This document shows positions 6,791 through 32,816 of a DNA stretch of 64,000 bases, piece by piece. Source of the DNA: Streptacidiphilus anmyonensis (lineage in GTDB: Bacteria > Actinomycetota > Actinomycetes > Streptomycetales > Streptomycetaceae); the NCBI RefSeq assembly GCF_000787855.1, contig NZ_BBPQ01000026.1, forward strand, positions 1 through 64,000. Reading direction: 5' to 3'. The position numbers and the translations under genes are program-made. The stretch's first letter is position 1. The number at the start of each line of letters is the position of its first letter. The notes under the pieces are model-generated. The model saw only the letters and a list, made by a program, of their open reading frames with translations, did no database searches and was not told where the DNA came from.

Positions 6791-8037
6791 GGTCTACCTC
6801 CTTTGACGTAACGGCCAGTCGTTTCCTTCGGTGCAAGAACGCCGGTACGCGTCAGGTGCTCCACAAATTGTTGATGAGCAGGAGCTGGATTCAAGCGCAG
6901 CGGGGCTCAGCGGAAGGGCGGTGATCGGCGTGCTCTATGGCCGGCCGGCTTCGCTCGCACCGGGTGGTTGTCATGGCGGTAGCCAGTAAGCCTTGCGCTG
7001 CATCGCACCCCGCCCTGGTGATCGCCCGTCAGGGCGAAATCGTCAGGGGGATCGTGCGGAGCGGACCGCAGGTGTCCAGTTCGAGACTTTGCGAAGCCTG
7101 GCCTACCAAGGCGAGCGGCACCTGTCCGGCTCGGTGTCCTACCCGCCTTCGGGCAGGACAGGTGCGTGGCATCGAGATGTCATGGCCGACGATGAGGCTG
7201 ACCTTTTCATTGTTTGCCCAGACCATTCCGTCCGCCAGATGGTGCGAGGATCGGCGGAGCCGTTGCTGGTGCTCATGCGGACGCAGTGATAACTGGTGAC
7301 GTGAGTGTGGAATTGCAACCAGTGCCGACAGGCCGGAAACACTGTCGAAGCGCGGCCGCCCGACGGCGGTCGACGGGCCGGGCCTTGTGGCGGACACAAC
7401 CGCCAGGATCCGTCCCAGACTTCTCACTTCACCCGGCTCGGCATCTCGGTCAAGTCCTGCCAAGTCGTCCGCGCGGACGCCGCCGCTGGATAGGCGATGG
7501 TCTCGTGTACCAGGAGAAGACACGCTTCCTGCGCTTCGCTGCTCTCGGTCATTCGGGAACATATAAGCCCACGCCGACATTCCACGTTCGAAACCGACGG
7601 CATCTGACCCGCCTCCAGGCTGGGGCTTCGGCCAGGATGCAAGCCCCTGGTCACCGTGCAAGGCTGGCTCTTGGGGTCCGACGAGGGGCTCCCTCCGACC
7701 CGCGAGGCGATCCGCCTCCTACAGGGCCGATGCGTTTGGCACCCCGGTGGGAGGCATGCGGACACGACACCAGGCCAGATCTCGGAGGCCCTTCGTAGCC
7801 GGGTGGACCAGGCTCTGGGCATCGTCCTGGCCGTTAGCGGCACAGAGTTCTCACAGGATCGGCCGTGATCGCCGGCGTGCTCTGACTGGCGTTCCACACG
7901 TCTTGGGACACCGTCGCGCTCATCGCTGCCGACATCCACAACCAGTAGGCGCTCTGAGTCGGACCGCACGCGCAGGCATGTCTGAACTTGAGGTCCCACA
8001 CCTACCGGCCGCCAGCAAGGCGCATTACTTCGAGCGA
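6791..8037. other. 1.2-kb gene-poor region with possible gene remnants
   Basis: No intact gene could be supported. A plus-strand frame around 7180-7289 (ending PLLVLMRTQ) and another around 7656-7868 (containing ALRSRVDQALGIVLA, faintly like an ANTAR helix) look more protein-like than their surroundings. They lack proper starts and neighbours. They may be decayed stress-protein genes; this is weak inference. Confidence 0.4.
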
Positions 8038-18544: not shown

Positions 18545-18766
18545 CTAGCTTTGGTCATCGGTCTCTCTTGGGGCCCGCTCCAGGGCGGTACGGCAGCGCG
18601 GACACAGTTGACTGGCTTCGATGTCCTCGCAGTCAGCATCGGTAATCGGGCGGACCTCTGCGATGGACGACAACAGTCTGTGGCACAGTGTGGCGCCGTT
18701 GGCGTCGCCAACGATGTGCCACAGTACGGCGGTCGCGACTCCGTACTCGGCCTTCAGCGTCGTCAT
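18545..18766 (-). CDS. Small cysteine-containing protein
   Basis: A 73-residue protein with CHRLL near residue 24, DADCEDIE and a final LCPRC pair. The cysteines (and one His) could bind a metal. It begins with an ATGA overlap at the stop of the gene at 18763-19161, so the two are probably translationally coupled. No family name was recognised. Confidence 0.62.
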   Translation of the reverse strand: MTTLKAEYGVATAVLWHIVGDANGATLCHRLLSSIAEVRPITDADCEDIEASQLCPRCRTALERAPRETDDQS

Positions 18767-19161
18767 GGCCGGTGGCCTGCTTCCTCTGTTTCTTGGCGCA
18801 CTCGGGCGTGGACGGAGCGGATGAGTCGCTGCTGGGGGTCGCTGAGTCCACACAGGCCGGCCATGGTGTCACCGGGTACGGCGTGGGTGCCGCAGATGGC
18901 CAGGGTGCCGTGGATCGGCGGTTCGGGGCTGCCGAAGGCGGCCAGGAGCGCCTGGCCGAGCGGGTTGGATTGCTGGCCGGAGGGGAGGGAGTCATCCCCC
19001 GTGTAACCGCACAACCCTTGGGCTCTGCCCTGGGCGCGCAGAATGGTGAAGGCGACGGGTCCCGTCTGCGCGGCGTCGGGGTCCTTGAGCATCGTGCGAG
19101 TATCGCCGTCACGGAAGTGCAGCCGTCCGTCGGGATCGATGAGGGCATAGATGCCAGGCAT
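18763..19161 (-). CDS. Hypothetical protein, first gene of a coupled pair
   Basis: A 132-residue protein starting MPGIYALIDPDGRLHFRDGD, with FTILRAQGRAQGLCGYTGDD and PIHGTLAICGTHAVPG. AGGAGG lies about 11 bases before the chosen ATG; the frame extends upstream through less typical sequence. The N-terminal 'D-DGR' pattern suggests a small beta-rich domain. Function unknown. The stop overlaps the start of the downstream cysteine-containing protein. Confidence 0.6.
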   Translation of the reverse strand: MPGIYALIDPDGRLHFRDGDTRTMLKDPDAAQTGPVAFTILRAQGRAQGLCGYTGDDSLPSGQQSNPLGQALLAAFGSPEPPIHGTLAICGTHAVPGDTMAGLCGLSDPQQRLIRSVHARVRQETEEAGHRP

Positions 19162-20144
19162 GGCGAAGTATCCTCCTGTCCAAGGAGGTTTGGGCGCCAG
19201 TTCCAGGCGCGGTGACGTGCCCTCCCGTGCGCTGACCTCGACGTCGGTGTCGTCGGCTTTGGTCCAGGGCAGCTCGGGCCTCGACGAGTGAGGCGTATCC
19301 GGTCTCATGCATCTCGGTCGCGGGCGCCCAGACCCCAGCGGGGATCGGGTCCCGACGATCTCCAGGATCCGCCCGAAGAGGTCGTCGAACTCGGCAGCGA
19401 TCGGCTGGCCTCAGCCTACTCCTTGAAGCCGCCACGGCTCGGTCAGTCTGGCGCAGGCAGCATCAGGGCGGCGGCTCGCCGCAGCCATTGCCGACGCCGG
19501 ACCACACCCTATGAGTGCGGGGAGTGAGCCAGGCGGCTCTCTCCCGTACCCGGGTCTCGTCCTTTCGCTGTGCGGGTACCCGCATCGCCCTGGCGGACAG
19601 GTCGGCTTTGACGACCGTGTTCGCCCGACTGGTCCGTCTCGGCAGAACGCATGTCGGGAAGACGCTGATCAGGCGAGGGCCGACCAGCCGAGAGGGAGCG
19701 GCCGGTAGCCAGGGCCGACCATGTCCGACCTTGGGAAGATCGTTGTACACGACTTGTGGATAAGTGTGGACAACGCGGTACTCGCTTCTCTGCTCAGTGG
19801 CCGTCGATCCACCATGAAGTGAGTATTCGGCCGCGTGGGTGGAAGTCTGTCAGTTCTGTCCACTTCGTCCGCGGCCGCGCCGGACAAGAGTCGCTCCATC
19901 ACCTGGTCCGCTGCCCGACCGCGTCAGGCACTGGACCTGTCCGCCCGCTCCGCGCTCGACGCTCTGGACACAGGCGTTCGCAAGGGCCCCGAGCCCGAGA
20001 ACCTCACGCTGTAGGCGTTCGTCCGTCCCATCCCGGAAGCCTGAGCGCCGGGTTCTGTATCCGACAGCTCCCCCGTGGATGAGTCGACAGCCGGAGCCCG
20101 GGTGCGGAGCCGGATGAGCGCCGGGCACGCTGGGCGAGTGCAAG
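19162..20144. other. 1-kb gene-poor region
   Basis: No gene could be supported. It contains two adjacent DnaA-box-like 9-mers near 19755-19773 (listed separately). No oriC partner genes (dnaA, dnaN) are nearby. Confidence 0.45.
19755..19773 (-). promoter_or_regulatory. Two adjacent DnaA-box-like sites
   Basis: TGTGGATAA (19755-19763) and TGTGGACAA (19765-19773) lie in the same orientation, one base apart. They read on the minus strand as TTATCCACA and TTGTCCACA, the E. coli and Streptomyces consensus forms. A weaker variant lies near 19856. DnaA binding is inferred from sequence alone. Confidence 0.45.
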
Positions 20145-20223
20145 GTTGTTACTAACTGTGACAAGCGAACTGCTCGAGGGGTGGTGGACGATGGCAAGCA
20201 TTGCGCATCACCGCTTCCTGACG

Positions 20224-20239
20224 TTGCGTCAGTGTTGCG
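20224..20239 (+). promoter_or_regulatory. TTGCG tandem box A1
   Basis: TTGCG at 20224-20228 and 20235-20239, start to start 11 bases. The same box recurs at 20639-20654, 32236-32251 and 32647-32662, each followed by a purine-rich GAG/GGAG. An 11-base direct-repeat spacing is common for OmpR/PhoB-type regulator sites; the actual binder is unknown. Confidence 0.5.
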
Positions 20240-20344
20240 CGGGAGAGCTGAAAGCCATGGCAAACGGCGCGAACTCGTGAAGAGAGCCTTCGCAGGTCAG
20301 CCGGGCCGCCTGGGGCAAAGTCGCAGGTTGCCCGGCTGTACCTC

Positions 20345-20414
20345 CAAGACCACCCAGATCTACGAGGGCACCAACCAGGTCCAGCGGATCGTCATGGCGC
20401 GCAACCTGCCGTAG
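20345..20414 (+). pseudogene. Acyl-CoA dehydrogenase 3' stub (copy A)
   Basis: Encodes only the final residues KTTQIYEGTNQVQRIVMARN plus LP and a stop. This is the classic C-terminus of short/medium-chain acyl-CoA dehydrogenases, including the catalytic-loop glutamate of IYEGT. The upstream sequence does not encode the rest of the enzyme. An almost identical stub lies in copy B of the long repeat. Confidence 0.82.
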
Positions 20415-20425
20415 GGTCAAAAGCG

Positions 20426-20440
20426 CAGGTCAATGACCTG
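20426..20440. promoter_or_regulatory. 15-bp perfect palindrome
   Basis: CAGGTCA-A-TGACCTG directly after the dehydrogenase stub. It is not conserved in copy B. It could be a regulator site or part of a termination structure. Confidence 0.4.
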
Positions 20441-20455
20441 ATTGCGCCATCGGAA

Positions 20456-20487
20456 CAGGCGCCCTTCCGGCCCCGGAAGGGCGCCTG
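20456..20487. terminator. Strong hairpin after the dehydrogenase stub
   Basis: Two perfect 15-base arms (20456-20470 and 20473-20487) separated by CC, GC-rich and without a T-run, as usual for actinomycete terminators. Copy B has a weaker hairpin in the same position (32462-32497). Confidence 0.75.
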
Positions 20488-20638
20488 CCCGCGTAGATGT
20501 GCGAGATCTACGAGGGCAAGGCAGGGCGGCTGGACAGTGTGATGGCACGGCCCTTGCCGTCATCGCAGGTCAGCGGCATTGAGCGGCCCGGTTGCCCCGC
20601 TCCGGCCCGAGGCATCACGGTGCCCGTGAGCACGGTTG

Positions 20639-20654
20639 TTGCGTGTATGTTGCG
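20639..20654 (+). promoter_or_regulatory. TTGCG tandem box A2
   Basis: TTGCG at 20639-20643 and 20650-20654, again 11 bases apart and followed by GAGAG. It lies about 300 bases upstream of the PucR gene at 20951, so it may be part of that promoter region or a relic. Confidence 0.5.
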
Positions 20655-20950
20655 TGAGAGATGTCCCAGACCGATTCGAGCCTCCGGTGAGGGGGTTGCC
20701 GTCGGGTTCGTTTGCTGAAAGCCGAGAGTCGGGCCATATACGGAGAGTGAGAGCCGATCGGTCCTGTTCTCCCCCGGGCTCGGGAAACTGCATGGGGCCG
20801 CTGCGCCTGGGGAGGCGTACGAAGCCTCACGTGCCGTGAGCCTTCCGGCGCGGCCCCGGCGACCGGGCGGACCCTCGACCCTCACCATCGAGAATCCTTG
20901 CGAATGGCGCCAGGAAGTCGCTCTGTTCGAGCTTGGTCTAATATCGGCCC

Positions 20951-22135
20951 GTGAGCGTGCTTCCCCCGTCCGGCCCGGGAAGGGCAGGCGGCGAACTGCG
21001 GCGTGTTCTGGAGCGCTTCGATGTCGGCGTCGTGGTGCGCCGGATGGAAGCAGGGTTCGGCCGGCTGCCGGCCTATACCGACTTCGAATGGTCGGTGGAC
21101 CGAACGGCTGTGGTGCGCTGGAACGTCGACCTCGCTCTGCGCTGGTTGGTCAACGGGATCCCGCCGGACGACTATCTCCTGTCGGAACTGCACGAGTTCC
21201 TGCGGGCTCGGGCCGCCGCCGGCCAACCCATCGAGGACAGCATCCTTGTCTACCGGCGCGGCGCGCGCATGTTCTGGGAGGCGCTGCTCGACCTGGCGAG
21301 TGACGAGGACCGGGCGGTGCTCGTCGCGGAGTGGGACACGGTCTGGTCCTGTCTGGAGGATTACCTCGATCTGGTCGTGGACGTGTTCGCACAGGCCTAC
21401 GCAGACCAGCAGGACGCGCCTTCGACGGCCGGTGACCGGCGCGCCCGCGCCCTTTTCGACCGCTTGTGCGCGCGGTTGCCGGTCACGATCGAGGATCGGG
21501 ACCGTGCCGCGCGGCTCGGGTTCGAGCTTGTCGGACCGTACCGGCCCTTCGCCGCCCTGTTGGCCGGGGCGGGCGTTTCCGGCCAGGCCGATCTGGCGTC
21601 GCGGCTGCGCACGGCCGGGGCGCTCGCCTTCACCGAAGGGGTCCGGGTGATGGGTCTGACACCGGCCGGGTTCCGCTGGGCGACGTTTCTTGAGGACCCC
21701 CGGCTGATCCTCGCGCTGGACCCGCCGCTCGCCCGCGACCGGCTCAGCGCGGCGGCCGACGGCCTGCGCGCGCTGGTCGCGATCGCGGCCCGGTCCGGGC
21801 GCCGGGGCCGGGTCCGCGCCGACGACTACCTGCCCGAACTACTGCTGGCCGATGCACCGGAAGCCTCCGACCGGATCGTCCGGCGGGTTTTCGGTCCCTT
21901 GGAGGCGACCGGAGCCGCGGATCTCGCAGACACCCTGCGAAGTCTCGCTGTCCACGGCTTCGACAGCACGAAGACTGCGACCGCGCTGCCGGTGCACCGC
22001 AACACGCTCCTGTACCGGGTGGCCCGGATCGAGAAGCTCACCGGTCTGTCACTCAAGGACCAGCGGGACCGCACGCTCGTGCTGCTCGCGGTCACCTGGG
22101 AGACCGTCGCCGCGGACGTACGGTCGGTCTGGTGA
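20951..22135 (+). CDS. PucR-type transcriptional regulator
   Basis: A 394-residue cytosolic regulator from a GTG start. The middle part resembles the GGDEF-like sensory region found in CdaR/PucR proteins. The C-terminus holds the PucR helix-turn-helix: LAVHGFDSTKTATALPVHRNTLLYRVARIEKLTGLSL (about residues 338-374). A second, clearly related PucR gene lies at 23420-24613, so this pair may have arisen by duplication. Likely targets are the nearby catabolic genes, by position only. Confidence 0.87.
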   Translation: MSVLPPSGPGRAGGELRRVLERFDVGVVVRRMEAGFGRLPAYTDFEWSVDRTAVVRWNVDLALRWLVNGIPPDDYLLSELHEFLRARAAAGQPIEDSILVYRRGARMFWEALLDLASDEDRAVLVAEWDTVWSCLEDYLDLVVDVFAQAYADQQDAPSTAGDRRARALFDRLCARLPVTIEDRDRAARLGFELVGPYRPFAALLAGAGVSGQADLASRLRTAGALAFTEGVRVMGLTPAGFRWATFLEDPRLILALDPPLARDRLSAAADGLRALVAIAARSGRRGRVRADDYLPELLLADAPEASDRIVRRVFGPLEATGAADLADTLRSLAVHGFDSTKTATALPVHRNTLLYRVARIEKLTGLSLKDQRDRTLVLLAVTWETVAADVRSVW

Positions 22136-22175
22136 CGGCACGACTCCGTCGGCCGGGGCCGTCCTCCGGGTGCAT

Positions 22176-22727
22176 CTAGGCTGGTCGGGCGATGCTCCGG
22201 ATACCGCGTGCCAGGCCGAGTTGCATAGCGCCGAGCATGATCAGCCACAGCCCGGCCAAGAAGGACAGCGTCAGCAACGAAAGCCCTGGCCAGGCCAGCA
22301 GCGTCAGGCCGGCGAAGACGCCGAGCAGCCCGATGAAGACGTTCCAGCCTCGCCCGGGCAGACCTGGGTGGTCGAGAGCCGCGAACACAGCGGTGAAGCC
22401 GTCCACGATCCAGTAGACGCCGAGCAGTAGTCCCAATGCGAGCAGCGTGATCAGAATGTGCCGGATCGCGTACAGCCCGAGTAGCAGGCTCACGACGCCG
22501 AGGACCGCGGTGAGGGTGCGGGCTGTGCCGGTCTCTCCCAGGCTTGCCGATCCGACGAGTCGGAAGACTCCGGCTGCGATCAGTTGAGCGCCGAAGACCA
22601 CGGCGAGCACGACGAGGGTGGGGCTGGGCCACGCCACGGCGATGAGGCCCGTGACAATCGAGACCAGCCCGTAGAGCAGATGCCAGGACCAGGAACCGCC
22701 CAGGCGGGCGATGAGGCTCTTGTTCAT
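22176..22727 (-). CDS. HdeD/DUF308 family membrane protein
   Basis: A 183-residue protein with about six membrane segments arranged as repeated hairpins. Typical motifs are YGLVSIVTGLIAVAWP at the N-terminus, LLGVYWIVDGFTAVFAAL in the middle, and WLIMLGAMQLGLA near the end. HdeD relatives are linked to acid resistance in enterobacteria; that role is not shown in actinomycetes. Divergent from the gene at 22871 and convergent with the first PucR gene. Confidence 0.86.
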   Translation of the reverse strand: MNKSLIARLGGSWSWHLLYGLVSIVTGLIAVAWPSPTLVVLAVVFGAQLIAAGVFRLVGSASLGETGTARTLTAVLGVVSLLLGLYAIRHILITLLALGLLLGVYWIVDGFTAVFAALDHPGLPGRGWNVFIGLLGVFAGLTLLAWPGLSLLTLSFLAGLWLIMLGAMQLGLARGIRSIARPA

Positions 22728-22870
22728 GCCGCGACGCTATGGGCGCCGCCGGTGGGCGAACTCCCAAAATCCCGCCAAGTCTTCGTGCCCTCGCACAACA
22801 GGGGCGGGCGTTCAATGGCGACGAGGATCCCGAAGGACGTGGTCCGGTTGCCGATGGGGGAGTGCAGGTC

Positions 22871-23371
22871 ATGGCCGTTCCTGGTAGCTGGGAAAACTTC
22901 GCCGTGATGACCGGAGGCGCCAGCGCGGCCCTCACCGGACTGTTGTTCGTCGCGGTGTCCCTGAACGCGGGGCGGATAGCCAGACACGCAGACCTGCGGG
23001 CGATCGCGGGGCAGACCCTCGTGCTGTTCGTTGCCCCGCTGGTCATGGCGACGCTTCTGCTGACACCCCGCCAGCCCGACCGGGTCCTGGGCGTCGAACT
23101 CATGGCGGCCGGCGTGTGCGGGGGCCTGAGCCTACTGGCCATCGGGCGGCGCAGACGCGGGCCGGCCGCCGCCGGCAACCGGGTGACCGGCCTGTTCGAC
23201 CGCCGGGACACCAGCGTGGTCGTCATGCTGCTGTTCGTGGGCAGCGGGGCCGTCCTGGCGGCCGGCAGGCCCGCCGGCCTCTACCCGCTGGTGCCCGCCT
23301 CGCTGGTGGCGTTCCTCAGCGGGGTGCTGAGCGCATGGAACTTCCTGCTCCCGCCGCCGGACCTGGTGTAG
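22871..23371 (+). CDS. Small actinobacterial membrane protein
   Basis: A 166-residue protein. It starts MAVPGSWENFAVMTGGASAALTGLLFVAVSLN, then has segments at LVLFVAPLVMATLLL, LMAAGVCGGLSLLAI, VVVMLLFVGSGAVLAAG and YPLVPASLVAFLSGVLSAW. The N-terminal pattern (aromatic-rich, GGASAALTGLLFVAVSL) marks a common uncharacterised family. A GGGGGAG lies 9 bases before the ATG. It is followed 48 bases later by the second PucR gene on the same strand. Confidence 0.72.
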   Translation: MAVPGSWENFAVMTGGASAALTGLLFVAVSLNAGRIARHADLRAIAGQTLVLFVAPLVMATLLLTPRQPDRVLGVELMAAGVCGGLSLLAIGRRRRGPAAAGNRVTGLFDRRDTSVVVMLLFVGSGAVLAAGRPAGLYPLVPASLVAFLSGVLSAWNFLLPPPDLV

Positions 23372-23419
23372 CGGCGCTCTGCCTCCGGTCCGCACCGATT
23401 TCTCTGGAAGGTCACACCC

Positions 23420-24613
23420 ATGTACGCCATGCCCCGGGTCGGTCACGGGCCTGCGGCGGTCGCCCGGCTGCGCGGCGTCATGTGCGAGCTCGACAGTGAG
23501 CTGATGGTACGTCGGCTGGCAGGTGAGCTGAGCGACACTCCCGTAGGCCGGATCGGCGGCCAGGGCTGCCGGCCCGACGTGAGGGAGGACATCGTCCGCC
23601 GCAGCGCCGAGCTGATCAGGAACTGGTTGGTCAGCGGGCAGGAGCCCGCCACGGGCGCGCTGTCGGAACTGTACGAGGCGGCGCGCGTGGCGGCCGGGTG
23701 CGGTCTGACCGCCGAGGACGTGTTCCGTGCCTGTTGCGCGGTTGCGCGGTCGGTGCGGGGTACTCTCCTCGAGTCCAGTCCGGCCGAGGAGTGGTTCCTG
23801 CTCGTGCCCCAGCTGGACGTGCCGTGGGCCTTCCTGGACGTCGCGCTGACCACGGTCGCTCGGGCCTTCGCTGACCAACGAGACCTTCCGTCGGCCGGCG
23901 ACAACGCCCGTGCGACGATGCTGTTCGCCAGCCTCTGCGCCCGGTCGGCGACGACCCTTGAGGATCTCGACCGGGCGGCGCGGCTGGGCTTCGTTCTCGA
24001 GGGCCCGCACTGCCCGTTCGTCGTGGCGATCGAGGGCGGTTCGGCCGCCGCACACGCCGGCCTGGCGGCCCGCCTGCGGGCCGAGGGCGCGCTCGCCTGC
24101 GCGCAGGGGTATCGCGTTGCCGGTCTGACCGGGCCGGGATTCGACTGGACGGTCCCCCTGGCCGACAGTGCCTTGATCCTCGCCACCGCGCCGACGACCG
24201 CGTCGGAAGGGATCGCTGACGCGGTCGGCAACCTGCACGATCTGGTCACTCTCGCGTCGAGAGCGGGGCGCCGAGGACGCATCCGCCCCGACGACTTTGT
24301 GACGGAGATCATGCTCGCCAACTCTCCGCAGTTGGCGGAGACCATCACGCAGCGGGTTCTGGGGCGGCTGAACACCGAGGACCCCACCGGGACCCTGGCG
24401 CAGACCCTGGCCTGCCTCGCCGTACACGGATTCGACCGGTCGGCGACCGCGGCGGCGCTCCCGGTCCACCGCAACACCCTGCTGTACCGCATCAGTCGGA
24501 TCGAGAAGCTGTCCGGTCTCGACCTCGATCACCACGCGCATCGTGAGCTGGCCCGACTGGCCGTCGTCTGGACGGAGGCGGTCGGCGTGGGCGCAACCGG
24601 TCGTTCCGGGTGA
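23420..24613 (+). CDS. PucR-type transcriptional regulator (second copy)
   Basis: A 397-residue regulator with the same layout as the gene at 20951. Its C-terminal helix-turn-helix reads LAVHGFDRSATAAALPVHRNTLLYRISRIEKLSGLDL. Both also share DLDRAARLGF/DRDRAARLGF and the RxGRRGRxRxDD segment. It converges on the keto-acid decarboxylase gene across a shared hairpin, making that enzyme or its divergent partner a plausible target. Confidence 0.87.
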   Translation: MYAMPRVGHGPAAVARLRGVMCELDSELMVRRLAGELSDTPVGRIGGQGCRPDVREDIVRRSAELIRNWLVSGQEPATGALSELYEAARVAAGCGLTAEDVFRACCAVARSVRGTLLESSPAEEWFLLVPQLDVPWAFLDVALTTVARAFADQRDLPSAGDNARATMLFASLCARSATTLEDLDRAARLGFVLEGPHCPFVVAIEGGSAAAHAGLAARLRAEGALACAQGYRVAGLTGPGFDWTVPLADSALILATAPTTASEGIADAVGNLHDLVTLASRAGRRGRIRPDDFVTEIMLANSPQLAETITQRVLGRLNTEDPTGTLAQTLACLAVHGFDRSATAAALPVHRNTLLYRISRIEKLSGLDLDHHAHRELARLAVVWTEAVGVGATGRSG

Positions 24614-24649
24614 GCGGGCCGGGCAACGGAATCCTGGCCGGCTCGCTCA
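24611..24649. terminator. Bidirectional hairpin between convergent genes
   Basis: Arms TGAGCGGGCCGG (24611-24622) and CCGGCTCGCTCA (24638-24649) pair with one mismatch. The structure sits between the stops of the second PucR gene and the decarboxylase gene and can serve both strands. Confidence 0.7.
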
Positions 24650-24661
24650 CCTGACGCCACC

Positions 24662-26350
24662 TCAGATCTGCGCGCCGGGGCGGAGTTGGGGGCCGCGCGG
24701 CCCGTAGTCCAGGTCGGCGGATCCGTGCCCGGCGCCGATGAGCAGGTCGGGGGTGTCGAACCGGTCCATGACCGCCTCGATGAAGACCAGGGAGTCGTGC
24801 GGTGCGGCGAGAGCCTCCTTGAGCTCTTCGAGCGTCGAGACGGTGCACGACCGGGCGGTGGTGCCGGGCTGGAACACCTGGGGCAACTGCGCGTAGGACC
24901 AGTTGGCCACGTCGTTGTAGCGTGCGGTCCTGCCGAGGATCGTCCGTTCGATGGTGTAACCGCCGTTGTTGACCAGGAGGATGATCGGCTTCAGGTCGTG
25001 CCGCAGCATTGTGGACACCTCCTGGGCGGTGAGCTGGAACGAGCCGTCCCCGACGAAGAGCAAGTGCCGCCGGTGCGGTGCCGCGAGGAGGGTTCCGAGA
25101 GTGGAGCCGACGCTGTAGCCGATCGAGCCCCAGACGGCCTGGGTGACGAACGTGCAGTCCGGCGGCAGGCTGAGCCCCCACGCGCCGCCGTTGGCGGTGC
25201 CGTCCTCGGCGATCAGCACGTCGCCCGCGCGGACGAACTCCTGTATGGCTGCCCAGTATTCGCCCTGGGTGAGTCGGCCCGCGGTCGGTGGGGTGTTCGT
25301 TGCGACCGGCATCGGGACCGGGCGGGTGATCTGCCGGTCAGTGACCGGCTCGACTGCGTCGATCACGGCGTGGAGAAGTTCCTTGAGCGTCACCGCCTGG
25401 TAGTTCACGCCGTCCACGTCCGCCGAGTAGGCGTGCAGCCGGATCGCGGAATCGGGGATCGCGTCGTTGAAGCAACTGGTCGTCAGGTCGACCGGCCGGT
25501 ATCCCAGTGTCACCAGGCAGTCGCTCTTCTCGACCGAGTCGCGGGTGACCGGCAGGCTGCCCGCTCCCGCGTACAGGCCGACAGAGGTGGGTGCCGTCTC
25601 GTCGATGACGGCCTTGGAGGTGACCATGGTCGCCACCGGCAGCGCCAGCTTCCCGGCGAGCTCCGCCACCTCACCGGCGACACCGAACCGGTCCACATCG
25701 AGATCGATGACGACCGCCGGCGCGGTGGCCGCGGCCAGCCTGGCGGCGACGGCGTCGGCGCAGGCCCGCAACCGCTCGGGATCGCTGGCCGGCAGGGCCA
25801 ACCGCAGCGGCTCGTCCGGAACCTCGATGTCCAGGTAGACGATGTCGGAGGGGAGTTCGAGGTAGACCGGGCGCTTGAGCTGCCAGGCGGTGGTGATCAG
25901 CCGGTCGATCTCGATCACCGCGTTCTGCGGGGTGATCCTCGCCTGCGCCGCGGTGACCTGCTCGAACGCGCGGTAGAACGTGTTCTGGCTGCCGTCGGCC
26001 GGGGTGTGGTGCATGAGCAGCCGCTGGTCCACCGCCTTCAGCGGCAGCGAGCCGCAGACGACGACCACCGGGACGTGCTCGCTGTTCGCCCCCGCGACCC
26101 CGTTGATCGCGCTCAGCGCGCCGACCCCGTTGGTGACGACGAGACCCGCGATGCCGTTCAGTCGCGCGTAGCCGTCTGCGGCGTAGGACGCGTTCAGTTC
26201 GTTGCAGGTGCCGACCCAGGCGAGCGCGCCCCCGTCCTCGATCTGCTGCATGAAAGCGAGGTTGAAATCGCCGGGGACGCCGAAGAGGTGCGCGATCCCC
26301 GCCTCGCACAGGCGCCGCAGGAGGAAGTCCCCGATGGTGCTTGTGGTCAT
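24662..26350 (-). CDS. Thiamine-diphosphate alpha-keto-acid decarboxylase (PDC/IPDC type)
   Basis: A 562-residue cytosolic enzyme that splits 2-keto acids (pyruvate, indolepyruvate or branched-chain) into aldehyde and CO2. Evidence: Glu51 in CNELNASYAADGYAR, which activates the cofactor; the His114-His115 pair in HHTPADG, diagnostic for the decarboxylase branch; and the cofactor motif GDGSFQLTAQEVSTMLR...LVNNGGYTIE near residues 435-465. Full length. Substrate cannot be fixed from sequence. It is divergent from the hydrolase-poxB pair, with palindromes in the shared promoter region. Confidence 0.9.
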   Translation of the reverse strand: MTTSTIGDFLLRRLCEAGIAHLFGVPGDFNLAFMQQIEDGGALAWVGTCNELNASYAADGYARLNGIAGLVVTNGVGALSAINGVAGANSEHVPVVVVCGSLPLKAVDQRLLMHHTPADGSQNTFYRAFEQVTAAQARITPQNAVIEIDRLITTAWQLKRPVYLELPSDIVYLDIEVPDEPLRLALPASDPERLRACADAVAARLAAATAPAVVIDLDVDRFGVAGEVAELAGKLALPVATMVTSKAVIDETAPTSVGLYAGAGSLPVTRDSVEKSDCLVTLGYRPVDLTTSCFNDAIPDSAIRLHAYSADVDGVNYQAVTLKELLHAVIDAVEPVTDRQITRPVPMPVATNTPPTAGRLTQGEYWAAIQEFVRAGDVLIAEDGTANGGAWGLSLPPDCTFVTQAVWGSIGYSVGSTLGTLLAAPHRRHLLFVGDGSFQLTAQEVSTMLRHDLKPIILLVNNGGYTIERTILGRTARYNDVANWSYAQLPQVFQPGTTARSCTVSTLEELKEALAAPHDSLVFIEAVMDRFDTPDLLIGAGHGSADLDYGPRGPQLRPGAQI

Positions 26351-26590
26351 TTGTCCTGCCTCCTTGGTCGAGTACGCCCGGATGCCGGCACATACCCATG
26401 GTCGGGGCGAGGCCTACCTCGCCCATGCCCACCATGCTCACGGCAGGGATGTTGTGCACAGGCCCAACAAGTGGGCGGGGTCCTGTGCCCCGGGCACAAC
26501 GCGACGACTGCCACGCTGGGCAGCCACAGGGCGTGAGCCGAAGAGGCTCGTGCTCTTCCAAATCCCTTACTGCGACGGAGGGTTGCAGAC
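26351..26590. promoter_or_regulatory. Divergent promoter region with operator-like palindromes
   Basis: This 240-base region separates the decarboxylase (minus) from the hydrolase (plus). It holds TGTGCACA (26453-26460) and, 31 bases on, TGTGCC-CCG-GGCACA (26484-26498). The second has perfect 6-base arms and a 3-base spacer. The shared TGTGC half-sites suggest one regulator controlling both directions. The regulator is unknown; a PucR protein is a positional guess. Confidence 0.5.
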
Positions 26591-27436
26591 ATGCCCACGA
26601 CACCGGACACGATCGTACTGATCCATGGCCTGTGGATGACGCCACTCGCCTGGGAACACTGGGCGGCGCGCTACGAAGAGCGCGGCTTCACCGTGCTGAC
26701 GCCCGGCTACCCCGGAATCGAGCCGGGGGAGGCCGGGGTGAAGGCGCTGCGGGAGGACGCCTCGGGTATCGCCGGTGTCGGTGTACGCGAGGTGATGGAC
26801 CACCTCACCCGCGTGATCGGAGAGCTCGACACCCCGCCGATCATCATGGGCCACTCGTTCGGCGGGACCTTCGCCCAACTGCTGGTGGGCGCCGGCCTGG
26901 GGGCGGCCGGGGTGTCGATCGACGGCGCCGCGGTCAAGGGCGTGAACGCGATGCCGATCTCGGAGCTGCGTTCCGTGCTGCCGGTCCTGAAGGACCCCGC
27001 GAACGCGCGGCGGGCTGTCCCGTTGACGCCCAAGCAGTTCCACTACGCTTTCACCAACACCCTGGACAAGGACGCCTCCCGGTTGGCATACGACCGCTAC
27101 GCGGTGCCGACACCGGCCCGCATCCTGTTCCAGGGCGGTCTCGCCGCTGTCACCCCGCACGCGGCCACGACCTTCGACTTCACCGACGGCGAACGGGGAC
27201 CCCTGCTGTTCGTCTCCGGCGGCAGCGACCACATCTTGCCGCCCGTCGTGCAGCGGCAGAACTACGAGAAGAACGCGAAGCACTCCGCTGCGATCACCGC
27301 CCACACGGTGTTCGACGGTCGCGACCACTTCACCTGCGGCGAGCCCGGTTGGGAGGCCGTTGCCGACTTCGCCCTCGATTGGGCCCTGAACCCACGCGCC
27401 GGAGTCCTCGACGCCACCACCGGCGACCCCCGCTGA
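26591..27436 (+). CDS. Alpha/beta-hydrolase
   Basis: A 281-residue cytosolic hydrolase. HGLW (12-15) forms the oxyanion loop, GHSFGG (87-92) holds the nucleophile Ser89, and GGSDHILP and GRDHFT near the C-terminus supply candidate Asp and His of the triad. AGGGTTG is the nearest site before the ATG. It is followed 40 bases later by poxB and so is probably cotranscribed. The substrate (ester, lactone or acyl compound) is not evident. Confidence 0.85.
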   Translation: MPTTPDTIVLIHGLWMTPLAWEHWAARYEERGFTVLTPGYPGIEPGEAGVKALREDASGIAGVGVREVMDHLTRVIGELDTPPIIMGHSFGGTFAQLLVGAGLGAAGVSIDGAAVKGVNAMPISELRSVLPVLKDPANARRAVPLTPKQFHYAFTNTLDKDASRLAYDRYAVPTPARILFQGGLAAVTPHAATTFDFTDGERGPLLFVSGGSDHILPPVVQRQNYEKNAKHSAAITAHTVFDGRDHFTCGEPGWEAVADFALDWALNPRAGVLDATTGDPR

Positions 27437-27476
27437 CGGGATCCGACCGAAACCGCTGAGAACGGAGACACTCGTC

Positions 27477-29213
27477 ATGTCGAAAACAGTGGCCGACGGC
27501 CTGTGGGAGATGCTGGTCAGCGCAGGCGTACGGCGCTGCTACGGCATCGTGGGCGACGCGCTCAACCCGGTGGTCGACGCGATGCGCCGCAACGGCCAGG
27601 TCGACTTCGTGCATGTGCGCAACGAGGAGTTCGGTGTTTTCGCCGCGGTCGCCGAGGCGAAACTGACAGGGCACCCGGTCGCGGTGTGCGGGACCGCGGG
27701 CCCCGGGGTCGTGCACCTGATCAACGGCATGCTGGACGCCCTCAAGGAACAGGTTCCCGTCATCGTCCTGGCCGGCGACACAGAAACCCATCTGATGGAC
27801 AGCGAGACCGTTGAGGAGCTGAACCCCTATCGGTTCTTCGCGCCCGCGTCGGTGTACGTGGGGCGGCTGGTGAGTCCCGGCCAGCTGCGTACCGTCGTGA
27901 CCGCCGCGGTGACGGCAGCGATGACACGGGGCGGCCCCGCAGTCGTCTCCCTGCCCGGCGACGTGGCGGCGGCGCCCGCGCCGAAGGACCGCTACGAGAT
28001 CCGGCTGCCGCGCCCGCTGCGTGCGGCCGCCGGGCCGGACGACCTCGCCGCCATGGCCCAGATCATCAACGATGCCGGCACCGTGGCGGTCTTCGGCGGC
28101 CAGGGCTGCGCCGGGGCGCACGCCGAAGTCACGGCCCTGGCCGGGAGGCTGAGTGCACCGGTCGGCTACTCACTCAAGGGTAAGCCGATCCTGGAGCACG
28201 ACAACGCGAACGCGGTCGGGATGACCGGCCTGTTGGGCTACGGCGGCTGTCATCACGCGCTCCAGCACGCGGACGTGCTGCTGATGCTCGGCACCGACTT
28301 CCCCTTCAGTCCCTTCCTGCCACAGCACGGCACGGCCCGCGTCATCCAGGTCGACCACCACCCGGAGCGGCTCGGCCGGCGCGTCCCGGTGGACCTGGCC
28401 GTCGCCGGCGACGTCCAGGCCACGGTGGCGGCGCTGCTGCCCCTGGTCGAGCCGAAGCCCGATAACGGGTTCCTCGCCCGCTGCGTGGAGGAGACCGAGC
28501 GATTCCACCGCCGTATGCGGCACTACACCGACAAGGGGCCACGAATCAAGCCGATCCGGCCCGAGTACCTGGCCGCGGTCCTCAGCGACCTCGCCGACGA
28601 CGACGCGTTGTTCTTCGCCGACACCGGAACCGCCGTGATCTGGGCTGCCCGGCACATCCGCTACGGGCCGCGGCGCCGGTTGTTCGGATCGTTCTCGTGG
28701 GCGTCGATGGCCACCGCCTCACCCGGGGCGTTCGGCGCCCAGCTCGCCTTCCCCGGCCGGCAGACGATCGCGCTGTGCGGCGACGGCGGCTTCACCATGC
28801 TCGCGCTCGGCGACCTCCTCACGGAAGTCCAGCGCAGGCTACCGGTTGTGCACATCGTGCTGAACAACAGCGGCCTCGACTTCGTCAAGATCGAGCAGCA
28901 GGAAGCCGGCCTCGTCCCGTTCGGGACAGACTTCGCCAACCCCGACTTCGCCGCCGTCGCCGAGGCCATGGGGGCCAAAGGAATCCGCATCGAAGACCCC
29001 GAAGACGTGCCGGACGGACTCGCGGCTGCGCTGTCACACACGGGCGGCCCGGTCGTCGTGGACGTCCTCGTCGACCCCTACGCCCTCGCCGTCCCCGCCC
29101 ACGTCCCCGCCGGCCCAGCCGCCGGATTCACCCTCAGCGCGGCACGACAGGTCCTCGCCGGCAGCCTCGACGACGTCATCGAAACCGCAACGCACAACGC
29201 CCGGCTCATCTGA
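27477..29213 (+). CDS. poxB: Pyruvate dehydrogenase (quinone)/pyruvate oxidase, PoxB type
   Basis: A 578-residue ThDP and FAD enzyme. The PoxB type oxidises pyruvate to acetate and CO2, passing electrons to membrane quinone. Visible: GIVGDALNPVVDAMRR at the N-terminus, the activating Glu in HVRNEEFGVFAAVAEA (about residue 50), GTAGPGVVHLINGMLDA, and the ThDP motif GDGGFTMLALGDLLTEVQRRLPV...NNSGLDFVK. GGAGA lies upstream of the ATG. Acetolactate synthase and oxalyl-CoA decarboxylase are relatives, but the overall pattern is PoxB. The electron acceptor is inferred. Confidence 0.87.
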   Translation: MSKTVADGLWEMLVSAGVRRCYGIVGDALNPVVDAMRRNGQVDFVHVRNEEFGVFAAVAEAKLTGHPVAVCGTAGPGVVHLINGMLDALKEQVPVIVLAGDTETHLMDSETVEELNPYRFFAPASVYVGRLVSPGQLRTVVTAAVTAAMTRGGPAVVSLPGDVAAAPAPKDRYEIRLPRPLRAAAGPDDLAAMAQIINDAGTVAVFGGQGCAGAHAEVTALAGRLSAPVGYSLKGKPILEHDNANAVGMTGLLGYGGCHHALQHADVLLMLGTDFPFSPFLPQHGTARVIQVDHHPERLGRRVPVDLAVAGDVQATVAALLPLVEPKPDNGFLARCVEETERFHRRMRHYTDKGPRIKPIRPEYLAAVLSDLADDDALFFADTGTAVIWAARHIRYGPRRRLFGSFSWASMATASPGAFGAQLAFPGRQTIALCGDGGFTMLALGDLLTEVQRRLPVVHIVLNNSGLDFVKIEQQEAGLVPFGTDFANPDFAAVAEAMGAKGIRIEDPEDVPDGLAAALSHTGGPVVVDVLVDPYALAVPAHVPAGPAAGFTLSAARQVLAGSLDDVIETATHNARLI

Positions 29214-29245
29214 ACGGCTGCCCAGTCGACAGAGGAGGACGCACC

Positions 29246-29696
29246 ATGACCGACAGCCACGACTCCTCGCCGGACGCACCGGACGCGATGCCCGGCGGCT
29301 GGCGCGAGATCTACCACGGCGGCTCACTGGAGGCCGAAGAGGTCCAGGTGCTCCCGCTCGACGACCTGACCGTCCTGCCGACGACGCGTGCTGTCGCCGA
29401 CACCACTGAGGGGCCCGCCTTCCACCGTGCCGTGGTGGACCTGCCTGAGCCGGCCGACGCCTTCGTCACGGTCCCGGGAAGCGACCGAACCCTGGGGTCT
29501 GGGTCAACGGCTTCCTCCTCGGCCGCCTCGCACCGAGCAGGGTCCGCAAGTCACTCTCTACGCCCCCGGACCGCAGTGGCGCGCAGGAGCCAACGAGGTC
29601 CTGGTCCTCGACCTTGTCGGCACCGCCGCGCCGATCACCCTGGAGCTGCGGGTCGAGCCCGCCCTCGGGCCGACCACCCCCGCGCCCGGGTACTGA
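29246..29696 (+). pseudogene. Beta-galactosidase (GH35-like) C-terminal fragment with two frameshifts
   Basis: Three frames together give a family-like C-terminal domain. Frame one runs from the ATG at 29246 through GPAFHRAVVDLPEPADAFVTVPG. Frame two gives GVWVNGFLLGRL (about 29493-29530). Frame three gives EQGPQVTLYAPGPQWRAGANEVLVLDL to the stop. In GH35 enzymes these pieces occur in this order at the end of a 550-600 residue protein; the catalytic barrel is absent. A strong GAGGAGG precedes the ATG and the fragment follows poxB by 32 bases. It is almost certainly non-functional. Confidence 0.72.
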
Positions 29697-29709
29697 TGGC
29701 CCGGCGGTC

Positions 29710-31074
29710 TCAGAACGGTGGCGTGGCCGGGGCGGGGCCGAGTGTGGTGGTGCCCGGCGCGGCCTGGTGCTGGAGACCATCGCGGTAGGCGTCGAGTGCT
29801 TCCTCCAGGCGTCCCGCGCGGCGCAGCAGATCCCCGAGCAGGCGGCACAGGTCGGCCAGATCGGTGGCGGCTCCGGCGCCGGTCAGCAGGTTGAGGGCGG
29901 CCCGGTAGTGGTCCTCGGCGGCAGCCGGGTCGCCGCGCTGCTCGGCGATCCGGCCGAGGAGCCGGTGCGCCGCGCCCGCGTGCACCGCGCCGCGGCCGTG
30001 GTGCAGCTCCTCGGTCAGGTCGGTCAGCAGCGCCGCGGCTTCGTCAGGGCGGCCCGCGCGGCGCAGCACGTCGGCCAGTTCGACGTCGATCTGCTGGGTG
30101 TAGAGGGTGGACTGATCGCGTGCCAGCAGCTCCCGGGCGAGACGCAGTTCCCGCTCGGCGGCGGGCAGGTCGCCGTCCTGGGCCCGGAGGTAGCCGCGCA
30201 TCCAGTGGCAGTGGGCGAGTTCGATGCCGATCCGCAGCTGCCGGTAGAGCTCCTCGGCCTTCGACAGGGACGCCTCGGCCTCTGCAGCCCGGCCCTCGGC
30301 CAGCAGGGTACGCGCCACTCCACGGTGCAGCCGGGCGACCAGCGCGGGGTCGTCGACCTTGGGGGCCAGCGCAAGGGCGAGGTCGGCGGCCTGGGCGGCG
30401 CGGCGGTGCGCGCCGAGGTCCATGTAGGGGCCCATCACCGCGGAGTAGAGCAGCAGCAGAGCGTGCGGATCCGCCAGCCCGCCGGTGTTTAGCTGGTCGA
30501 TCGCGCTCTCGAGCAGGTAGCAGCTGTAGCGCAGGTCGCCGGCAAGCAGGTGGGCGACCGCCCGGCCGCGCAGAGCCGGCACCCGCTGCGGCAGCGGTGC
30601 CTCCCGCAGCAGTTCCTCGCAGCGTTCGAAGGATGCGATGGCCAGGTCCAACTCGCCGAGATCCAGGGCGCAGTCACCAAGCCCCAGCAGGGCCGCCGCC
30701 TGCTGCTCGCCCAGGCCGTGCCGCTCGGCCTCGGCGGCGAGCTCCCGGTAGTCCTCTGCCGCCTGAGCGGGCTCGCCCGCGCAGAGCAGTTGGCGGGCCT
30801 CGGCCAGACGCAGTCCAAGCTCGCCGGCCAACTGCGGGGGCCGCCCCGTGGCCAGCAGTTCGTAGGGCACGTCGAGCCGGTCGGCCAGGTAACGCAGCGC
30901 GGCCTCGGAGGGGCGTACCTTGCCGGCCTCCAGAGTGGAGATGTAGGCGGCGGTGTAGTCCGGCTCCGCCAGGGCACGCTGGGTCAGGCCGCGCTCGGTC
31001 CGAAGTCTCAGCACCCGGCGGCCGACGGCCTGCCGATCGGTCGGCTCGTTCACTGGCGTCACATCCCCAGACAC
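29710..31074 (-). CDS. XRE-family regulator with TPR repeats
   Basis: A 454-residue cytosolic protein. An N-terminal XRE helix-turn-helix (about 15-70: LRLRTERGLTQRALAEPDYTAAYISTLEAG...SEAALRYLADRLDVP) is followed by an alpha-helical array of about eight or more TPR units, with repeated A-AE...LG-A...-GD patterns. This shape is shared with peptide- or ligand-sensing actinomycete regulators. It is divergent from the secreted protein gene at 31217, which is a likely target by position. Confidence 0.87.
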   Translation of the reverse strand: MSGDVTPVNEPTDRQAVGRRVLRLRTERGLTQRALAEPDYTAAYISTLEAGKVRPSEAALRYLADRLDVPYELLATGRPPQLAGELGLRLAEARQLLCAGEPAQAAEDYRELAAEAERHGLGEQQAAALLGLGDCALDLGELDLAIASFERCEELLREAPLPQRVPALRGRAVAHLLAGDLRYSCYLLESAIDQLNTGGLADPHALLLLYSAVMGPYMDLGAHRRAAQAADLALALAPKVDDPALVARLHRGVARTLLAEGRAAEAEASLSKAEELYRQLRIGIELAHCHWMRGYLRAQDGDLPAAERELRLARELLARDQSTLYTQQIDVELADVLRRAGRPDEAAALLTDLTEELHHGRGAVHAGAAHRLLGRIAEQRGDPAAAEDHYRAALNLLTGAGAATDLADLCRLLGDLLRRAGRLEEALDAYRDGLQHQAAPGTTTLGPAPATPPF

Positions 31075-31216
31075 TACGGCCGCAGGCGCTCTTGCCGGAA
31101 CCGGGCGGCGCCACTAGCTTGGCGGCGATGTAAGTCTGGCACTTAATCAGAGTTACATAGCGATTTACGTCGTCATCCCCACTCCTGCACCTCCTCCTGC
31201 ACCGGAACGGGACCCC
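31075..31216. promoter_or_regulatory. Divergent promoter region
   Basis: This stretch between the XRE/TPR gene and the secreted-protein gene is AT-richer than the surroundings near 31130-31165. It contains two GTTACATA/CATAGCG-like stretches. No clear palindrome could be assigned. Confidence 0.4.
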
Positions 31217-32077
31217 ATGCGCATCCACCAGGCCCTGGTCAGCGGCGCCGCCACCGTCGCCACCGCGCTCAGCCTGCTCGCCGCCGCACCCACCGCCCAC
31301 GCCATGGCCGTCACGACCGTCCACGCCCGCGCGGAACGGACCTTCGTGGCGGCGCCGACACCGCCCGGGCTGCCGCCGCTGGTCAACGGCAGCGGTCCGA
31401 TCTGCTGGTTCGGCGCCTGCTACGACTACGTGGCCGGGCGTCAGCGCACCGACACCGCCGGCGCCACCGTCCGAATGCTCCAGGCGTCGCCGACGCTCAC
31501 GTCCGGCGACACCAACGCACACTCGCTGCAGGAGCTGGCCCTGCAGTCCGCGGACCAGAAGTCCACCGTCGAGATCGGCTGGACCGTCGACCTCGGGCTC
31601 AACGGCGACCTGCTGCCGCACCTGTTCGTCTACCACTGGGTGGACGGGGCCGTGAGCTGCTACAACGGCTGCGGCTTCGTCCAGGTCTCGCGCACTGCCA
31701 AGGCGGGCATGGCACTGCGACCCGGCGAGGCCGCCGAGTTCTCGATCCGGAACATCGCGGGCGACTGGTGGGTGTTCTACGACGAGCACGCGGTGGGGTA
31801 CTTCCCCGGCTCGCTGTGGGGCGGCGGCTACACCCGCGCCCAGGTGATCACTGCCTTCAGCGAGGTGGCCCACGCCACCGGCAGTACCTGCGAGCAGATG
31901 GGAGACGGCCGTTTCGGCACCGCCGACGGCTCCGGCTGGATAGCCGACTACCGCCTGCTCGACGCCACCGACCGCCCCCAGCTCACGGTTGCCGCCACCA
32001 GCCCCGCTCTTTACGACGCCGGGCGCGTCACCCGGACATCGTTCCACCTCGGCGGCCCCGGCACCGGGCCCTGCTGA
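31217..32077 (+). CDS. Secreted neprosin-like (DUF239) protein
   Basis: A 286-residue protein exported by a Sec signal peptide (MRIHQALVSGAATVATALSLLAAAPTAHA, cleavage about residue 29). The middle has PHLFVYHWVDGAVSCYNGCGFVQVS and then WWVFYDEHAVGYFPGSLWGGGYT, the pattern of the neprosin/DUF239 domain, some members of which are prolyl endopeptidases. Cysteines in CWFGAC, CYNGC and near the C-terminus could form disulfides. Enzyme activity is not proven by sequence. Divergently transcribed from the XRE/TPR regulator. Confidence 0.77.
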   Translation: MRIHQALVSGAATVATALSLLAAAPTAHAMAVTTVHARAERTFVAAPTPPGLPPLVNGSGPICWFGACYDYVAGRQRTDTAGATVRMLQASPTLTSGDTNAHSLQELALQSADQKSTVEIGWTVDLGLNGDLLPHLFVYHWVDGAVSCYNGCGFVQVSRTAKAGMALRPGEAAEFSIRNIAGDWWVFYDEHAVGYFPGSLWGGGYTRAQVITAFSEVAHATGSTCEQMGDGRFGTADGSGWIADYRLLDATDRPQLTVAATSPALYDAGRVTRTSFHLGGPGTGPC

Positions 32078-32235
32078 ACCTCTGTTGCGCTCCTGAACAG
32101 CGCCCTGGAAGGCGGACGAGTTGGCCTGTGCTCCGGGCGCGTTGGTCGACTTCGGGCTGGTTACTGACTGTGACATGGGAACCGGTCGAGGATTGGTAGG
32201 TGATGGCAGGCGGTGCACATTTCCGCTTCTTGACG

Positions 32236-32251
32236 TTGCGTCAGTGTTGCG
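32236..32251 (+). promoter_or_regulatory. TTGCG tandem box B1
   Basis: TTGCG at 32236-32240 and 32247-32251, identical to box A1 and within a 27-base block conserved without change. Confidence 0.5.
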
Positions 32252-32355
32252 CGGGAGGGCGGAAAGCCATGGCAAGCGGTGCGAACTCGTGTAGAGAGTT
32301 TTCGCAGTTCAGCCGGGCTTCTGGGGTAAAGCCCCAGGCAGCCCGGCTGTACCTC

Positions 32356-32425
32356 CAAGACCACCCAGATCTACGAGGGCACCAACCAGGTCCAGCGCAT
32401 CGTCATGGCGCGCAACCTGCCGTAG
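32356..32425 (+). pseudogene. Acyl-CoA dehydrogenase 3' stub (copy B)
   Basis: Encodes the same final KTTQIYEGTNQVQRIVMARN plus LP and a stop as copy A, with a single silent-position difference in the block. The rest of the enzyme is absent. Confidence 0.82.
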
Positions 32426-32461
32426 GTAAAAGAGCTGGTCAGACCGTATATTGTGCCGTCA

Positions 32462-32497
32462 GGAGGGCTCCTTTCCGATCACGGCTGGGGGCCCTCC
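32462..32497. terminator. Hairpin after stub B
   Basis: GGAGGGC (32462-32468) pairs with GCCCTCC (32491-32497), extended by partly paired flanks. It takes the place of the stronger hairpin in copy A. Confidence 0.55.
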
Positions 32498-32646
32498 CGC
32501 GTAGATCTGCGACATCTACGAGGGCGTGGCTGCGCAATGAGTGACTGCGGCAGTCTGATCCAGGACGTCGCTGCAGGTCAGCGGCTTGTCGTGATTCGGC
32601 TGTGCCGTTCCGCCGCGCTGCCCAGCGGGGCGTACGAGCGCCGCTG

Positions 32647-32662
32647 TTGCGCGTATGTTGCG
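32647..32662 (+). promoter_or_regulatory. TTGCG tandem box B2
   Basis: TTGCG at 32647-32651 and 32658-32662, followed by CAGAG; matches box A2 in place and spacing. Confidence 0.5.
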
Positions 32663-32816
32663 TCAGAGGTGCGCCAAGGCGATTCTCGCTTCCGCTGACG
32701 TCGCGTTTGCCGACGACGAGTTGGGAGTCGCGGCATGCGCGGAGAGTGAATGTGGACTGGACCCAATGTGCTGGGACCCATGGCTGGGGGCCGCACGGCT
32801 GTGTGTCCTGTCGTCG

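Follow-up and report, generated by a model that had tools for sequence, protein, structure and literature searches.

Among the systems described so far, the island PAISt of Streptomyces turgidiscabies is the nearest Streptomyces counterpart to the repeats described here. It lies at the 3′-end of the protein-coding gene bacA, it has flanking and internal direct att sites that permit modular excision, and related islands have become fixed through erosion of the integrase gene and the sites (PMC4057263). PAISt has an 8-bp palindromic att site, an integrase gene and a length of 674 kb, whereas at our locus the shared site is ~600 bp long and no integrase was found (PMC4057263). In tandem prophages of Mycobacterium abscessus, a central attR/attL junction joins the two elements, and their cores resemble each other without being identical; unlike the case treated here, these are complete prophages with integrases at a tRNA target, and the target attB-21, in an acyl-CoA dehydrogenase (ACAD) gene of that species, is a serine-integrase site inside the gene and not at its 3′-end (PMC9934374). 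The attP of mycobacteriophage cluster K has two pairs of 11-bp arm-type repeats flanking the core and a putative terminator between the core and one arm. This is also the layout of our repeats, but the cluster K target is a tmRNA or tRNA and the integrase is adjacent (PMC3203893). Among the open-access papers listed, none was found to describe a tyrosine-integrase site at an ACAD 3′-end.

Here we describe two direct repeats, A and B, in a stretch of 64,000 nucleotides from Streptacidiphilus anmyonensis (the window). Judging from their sequence, we think it probable that both are composite tyrosine-integrase-type attachment sites (left arm-core-right arm) of elements inserting at one ACAD 3′-end.

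Two diverged direct repeats built around the end of an ACAD gene

A sequence-only reading of the window had described two diverged ~600-bp direct repeats with all parts in the same order, and these are real: A and B lie on the same strand with their parts in identical order, are 76% identical across 586 bp (20115-20690 versus 32127-32698; BLAST, E 9e-111), and are separated by 12,011 bp from core to core. Three ungapped blocks (81%, 91% and 77%) align A with B, and the two have an exact stretch of 57 bp in common. Alignment with relatives makes the shared unit slightly longer than first described, about 20115-20795 for A and 32127-32790 for B. Two features had been missed, namely that an ACAD 3′-end forms the middle of each repeat, and that the genome holds a third, half copy on contig C151, directly 3′ of the intact ACAD gene. 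Each copy consists, in order, of a left arm, a strong hairpin, a 69-bp core, a terminator-like hairpin, a partial second core and a right arm:

20115-20795 (ends approximate), + strand: copy A, complete arm-core-arm unit (BLAST against B, and relatives)
20223-20239, + strand: left arm pair of A, GTTGCGTCAGTGTTGCG, putative integrase arm-type sites (motif scan)
20294-20343, + strand: hairpin just 5′ of the core of A (20288-20345 folds at -39.2 kcal/mol, z -5.5, which 0 of 200 shuffles reached)
20346-20414, + strand: core of A, the last 22 codons and stop of ACAD, after non-ACAD DNA (sequence comparison)
20456-20487, + strand: terminator-like hairpin 3′ of the core of A, a perfect or near-perfect palindrome (BLAST self-match; fold z -5.0)
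20505-20517, + strand: partial second core copy of A, GATCTACGAGGGC (alignment)
20638-20654, + strand: right arm pair of A, GTTGCGTGTATGTTGCG, 292 bp from the core start
32127-32790 (ends approximate), + strand: copy B, complete arm-core-arm unit (BLAST against A, and relatives)
32235-32251, + strand: left arm pair of B, 122 bp from the core
32357-32425, + strand: core of B, with 1 difference from A over its 69 bp (sequence comparison)
32462-32500, + strand: terminator-like hairpin 3′ of the core of B, weaker than that of A (z -2.6 for the fold of 32450-32510, reached by 5 of 200 shuffles)
32646-32662, + strand: right arm pair of B, 289 bp from the core start

The core corresponds to the final 22 codons and the stop of the ACAD gene (KTTQIYEGTNQVQRIVMARNLP-stop in A), and in both copies it is preceded by DNA that is not ACAD. 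It differs from the ACAD end of its own genome at 4 of 69 positions in A and at 3 of 69 in B, the near-identity that would be expected between the core of an attachment site and its chromosomal attB. Pairs of the form TTGCG-N6-TTGCG occur four times in the 64-kb window, where 0.11 would be expected, and these are the two arm pairs of A and the two of B; the left arm of each copy contains GTTGCGTCAGTGTTGCG, and the right arm pairs follow the consensus GTTGCGyGTATGTTGCG. A near form of the arm motif gave 10 matches in 14 same-genus genomes, eight of them within units, and the reversed control gave none. At two single-arm matches, in G001 and G003, neither integrase nor core was seen.

Arm-type repeats thus stand on both sides of the core at a fixed spacing, which is 122–123 bp from left arm to core in all six related units and 289–301 bp from core to right arm in all eight, although the identity of the arms between units varies from 66 to 95%. 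Compared with the left arm, the core is the more similar part in 14 of 15 pairs of units, and only the pair G008b/G009b departs from this (arm 0.95 versus core 0.91).

The two strong hairpins around the core of A, the first of which is stronger still in B (fold z -6.4), could also suggest a conserved regulatory RNA or a transcription terminator cassette that has been retained for its hairpins. We regard this as highly improbable, since the downstream hairpin is weak in B and the best-conserved part of the repeat is the ACAD coding tail and not the stems.

Comparison with the attachment site of phage Stiles

The attP of Corynebacterium phage Stiles (MK977710) is built like A and B. Its core starts at the same ACAD codons (AAGATCACCCAG), with 36 bp of homology to the core of A by BLAST, it supplies a replacement ACAD C-terminus with a stop followed by a GC-rich terminator-like stem, and it has one 11-bp-phased arm pair on each side of the core. 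These arms are identical 19-bp pairs; measured from the core start, one is 130 bp upstream and the other 166 bp downstream, the latter inside the terminal part of the tyrosine integrase gene. Unlike A and B, the Stiles site is thus adjoined by a tyrosine integrase gene, and its arm sequence is a different one (GTCCCGCACTGGTCCCGCA). Phages Adelaide and Bran match the same stretch according to the match list, the anatomy having been read from Stiles alone.

The ACAD locus and further copies in relatives

The window was compared with same-genus genomes (14 sampled, including our own, G000) and with wider family genomes. The intact ACAD gene of our genome lies on contig C151 (L007:6984-8135), and its end with ~380 bp of downstream DNA is 77% identical to A and 74% to B, covering the right half only. 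The right arm follows the ACAD gene in G000, G006, G008 and G009, and the left arm is present in the same four of the 14 same-genus genomes; among family genomes the left arm was found in 6 of 200, two of these being single one-mismatch matches elsewhere. Five of the 14 same-genus genomes have the core in its element form, and within the genus sample the units are confined to these; among 394 family genomes six have this form, the one additional genome through a two-mismatch match. An exact scan of contigs from 84,980 species, among which our own genome is possibly not included, returned four stretches, in S. jiangxiensis, S. neutrinimicus and S. melanogenes. The core as such was matched in 301 of 394 genomes of the family, mostly, among the matches listed, in ordinary ACAD genes. 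Many genomes of genus g14 (e.g. G125, G110 and G166) have two ACAD-type core matches among those listed, and in several g14 drafts contigs start at most 60 bp from the core motif, as if two near-identical ACAD genes had broken the assembly.

A plain segmental duplication, produced by homologous or illegitimate recombination, of the ACAD 3′-end together with the native DNA downstream, and with no site-specific function, would fit the presence of the right half directly 3′ of ACAD in four genomes as well as the exact 57-bp stretch common to A and B. It leaves unexplained the left arm, the arm motifs on two sides, their spacing and the phage site of the same layout, and the right arm is missing in G002 and in seven genomes with a different ACAD neighbor, for which reasons we consider a duplication of this kind quite improbable.

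Four more units with left arm and core were found in relatives, one in G008, one in G009 and two in G006. The right arm is also present in the unit of G008 and in that of G006 on contig C63, and G009 has an additional left arm without a core. One G006 unit is located 3′ of an amidohydrolase gene in a fucose-type operon, of which G000 has a 95.8%-identical version without the unit. Those of G008 and G009 are located 3′ of an SDR gene, where G002 has none and relative to which the G009 insertion is about 357 bp, and another copy in the relatives adjoins a quinone-oxidoreductase gene. G002 does not offer a clean empty site, since it retains the SDR gene that lies within the supposed G009 element but has neither arm. 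The G006 unit on C63 is followed by a helicase gene with helicase-associated domains and two further genes (L066:10142-15374), which may resemble telomere or linear-plasmid genes.

The position of the units at varied loci, often just 3′ of a gene (Neprosin in the case of B, amidohydrolase in G006, SDR in G008 and G009), and the unit-free counterpart loci in G000 and G002 would also be in line with a small dispersed MITE-like repeat, mobile or copied, that once captured an ACAD 3′-end; the genes bracketed by A and B would then be there by chance. We hold this to be unlikely, as such a repeat does not account for the constant arm-core-arm spacing, for a core that is more alike than its flanks, or for copies 3′ of intact ACAD genes that comprise the right half only. 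Furthermore, a second, different family in G004 uses the same core. By eye, no terminal inverted repeats or target duplications were seen at the junctions inspected.

In G004 this different insert occupies the same place: the ACAD gene has a new tail end and is followed, 3,011 bp from core to core, by a core with the native terminator, and a copy of this insert type with both sides is found on another G004 contig. The corresponding distance from ACAD to the next core is 4,088 bp in G009 and 6,685 bp in G008, and G002 keeps interior DNA without the arms. The ACAD locus of our own genome (C151:255.9 kb) showed no further core next to the gene as a mark of the far end. Behind the ACAD terminator, at the same point, there is extra DNA of ~1.4 kb in G009 and ~4 kb in G008 as compared with G002, the 357-bp insert of G009 lying further on (L059:4868-4874 and 7490-7493 versus L067 and L060). 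Downstream of the ACAD gene of our genome there is a run of phage-tail-like genes (L007:15618-17909 and L061:326-9040, C151), which presumably resemble a contractile injection system.

Search for an integrase and for mobile relatives

Matches to the tyrosine integrase domain PF00589 numbered 61 in six genomes and those to PF07508 numbered 13 in five genomes, in both cases with none on a unit-bearing contig, including C128 and C151 of our own genome. When 132 loci including the window were searched by tblastn with 32 integrases, there was a single match, in L072. The Stiles integrase has matches at E 1e-20 in 29 of 150 family genomes, G000 not among them, and none of the 30 loci brought in by this search contains the core motif. 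The integrase gene by which an integrative element or a prophage is recognized was accordingly not found at A or B. Several units lie at or near contig ends, and part of an element may therefore be missing.

The left arm of A had no match in the phage collection, and the core pattern had no exact match in viral_contigs. Two exact matches of the arm pattern in the latter, on contigs with a GC content of 40% and 49% and with neither core nor second arm, were judged to be chance. Matches in the plasmid collection were to ACAD-type stretches, and among those listed (30 of 92 and 5 of 95 records) none reached 80% coverage of the query. A tRNA-borne island was rejected, as there is no tRNA within the window.

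The DNA between and around the repeats

The genes enclosed by A and B agree with their earlier description as regulators, keto-acid enzymes and a secreted protein, as judged from Pfam domain matches and, for the signal peptide, from reading of the sequence:

20951-22135, + strand: PucR-type regulator (HTH_30; Pfam)
22176-22727, - strand: DUF308 protein (Pfam)
22907-23371, + strand: protein without Pfam match (Pfam search)
23420-24613, + strand: second PucR-type regulator (HTH_30; Pfam)
24662-26350, - strand: TPP-dependent decarboxylase-like enzyme (Pfam)
26591-27436, + strand: alpha/beta hydrolase (Pfam)
27477-29213, + strand: TPP-dependent pyruvate-oxidase-like enzyme (Pfam)
29710-31053, - strand: HTH/TPR regulator (Pfam), whose orthologue adjoins the Neprosin gene in G006 and G008 at other loci
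31217-32077, + strand: secreted Neprosin-domain protein (Pfam; signal peptide by sequence reading), with orthologues in G006 and G008 without the repeat

Copy B begins 50–80 bp past the stop of the Neprosin gene. G006 and G008 have the pair formed by this gene and the HTH/TPR regulator (29701-32077) at other loci, with 85% identity; among the matches listed no repeat follows it there, and the homology ends at the Neprosin stop, 32077.

A and B had been proposed as the borders of an island, and in this respect the comparison points the other way. Homology of the left flank stops at 19423 in four of five compared relatives and at 19257 in the fifth, and non-syntenic DNA begins at 19424, left of A, and goes on past B. 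Right of B, six relatives match only piecewise, with several of the pieces on G009 contig C43. The interior does not stand out, because GC (0.706 between A and B, 0.683 to the left, 0.706 to the right) and GC3 (0.893, 0.886 and 0.923, respectively) are similar inside and outside. Neither a strain with one repeat and no island nor an empty site in which the flanks of A and B are joined was seen in the 13 same-genus genomes searched. Further copies, which had been suggested as something to look for, do exist, one half copy in the genome and more in relatives, but the latter are at unrelated loci, which argues against simple bracketing. Of the idea that the repeats served as a route of acquisition or loss, what stands is that they are built like site-specific recombination sites, which makes such a link reasonable, whereas their role in delimiting an island is not borne out. 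Recombination between A and B would free a circle of 12,011 bp; we doubt that A and B have ever excised the 12-kb segment as a unit, possible as it is, nor does the comparison support the bracketed genes as a mobile unit.

A tyrosine integrase gene (PF00589) at L072:10607-11944 in G012 adjoins the orthologue of window gene 18763-19161, the neighbor of copy A, and the neighborhood of that gene therefore receives different inserts in different relatives. Internal fragments of another ACAD gene (window 50664-51836; piece 51187-51431) adjoin the orthologue of the same gene in two relatives (G006:C63:33266-33498 and G002:C159:47676-47747; 83% and 96% identical).

Discussion

If A and B are attachment sites, the integrase would exchange strands inside the core, and as the core brings the last 22 ACAD codons, a stop and a terminator, an equivalent gene end would be swapped in and the ACAD gene would stay whole. 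Integration would leave ACAD with the right arm behind it at one end, and the left arm with the core at the other. Both product types are observed, at the ACAD loci of four relatives, which fits the predicted outcome. A full unit away from ACAD would be either the junction of two tandem elements or a site moved by rearrangement to a new place; complete units amid unrelated genes need such a second step, because a single integration would split the full site. The anatomy of A and B suggests that an integrase has acted on sites of this type, and we infer that the elements either lost their integrase or depend on one acting in trans, most of the sites by now being eroded relics.

Integron cassettes are an example of elements that rely on an integrase encoded elsewhere. 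By analogy, integrase-less gene blocks ending in an ACAD-tail site could be shuttled into and out of secondary loci of Streptacidiphilus as well as the ACAD 3′-end by the integrases of phages or conjugative elements. We consider such trans-mobilized cassettes rather unlikely. We favor, as the probable assignment, that A and B belong to a known type, the tyrosine-integrase attachment site at the 3′-end of a protein-coding gene, with no integrase gene found nearby that would make them an integrative element.

The attachment-site reading accounts for an otherwise odd repeat. It implies that the end of a conserved ACAD gene is an insertion target which a phage of Corynebacterium apparently has in common with a set of Streptacidiphilus elements, and it makes the ACAD 3′-end a candidate attB for actinobacterial vectors. 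Furthermore, the anatomy of A and B offers a way to recognize eroded elements that have no integrase, and if the sites still work with a supplied integrase, they would mark movable gene blocks.
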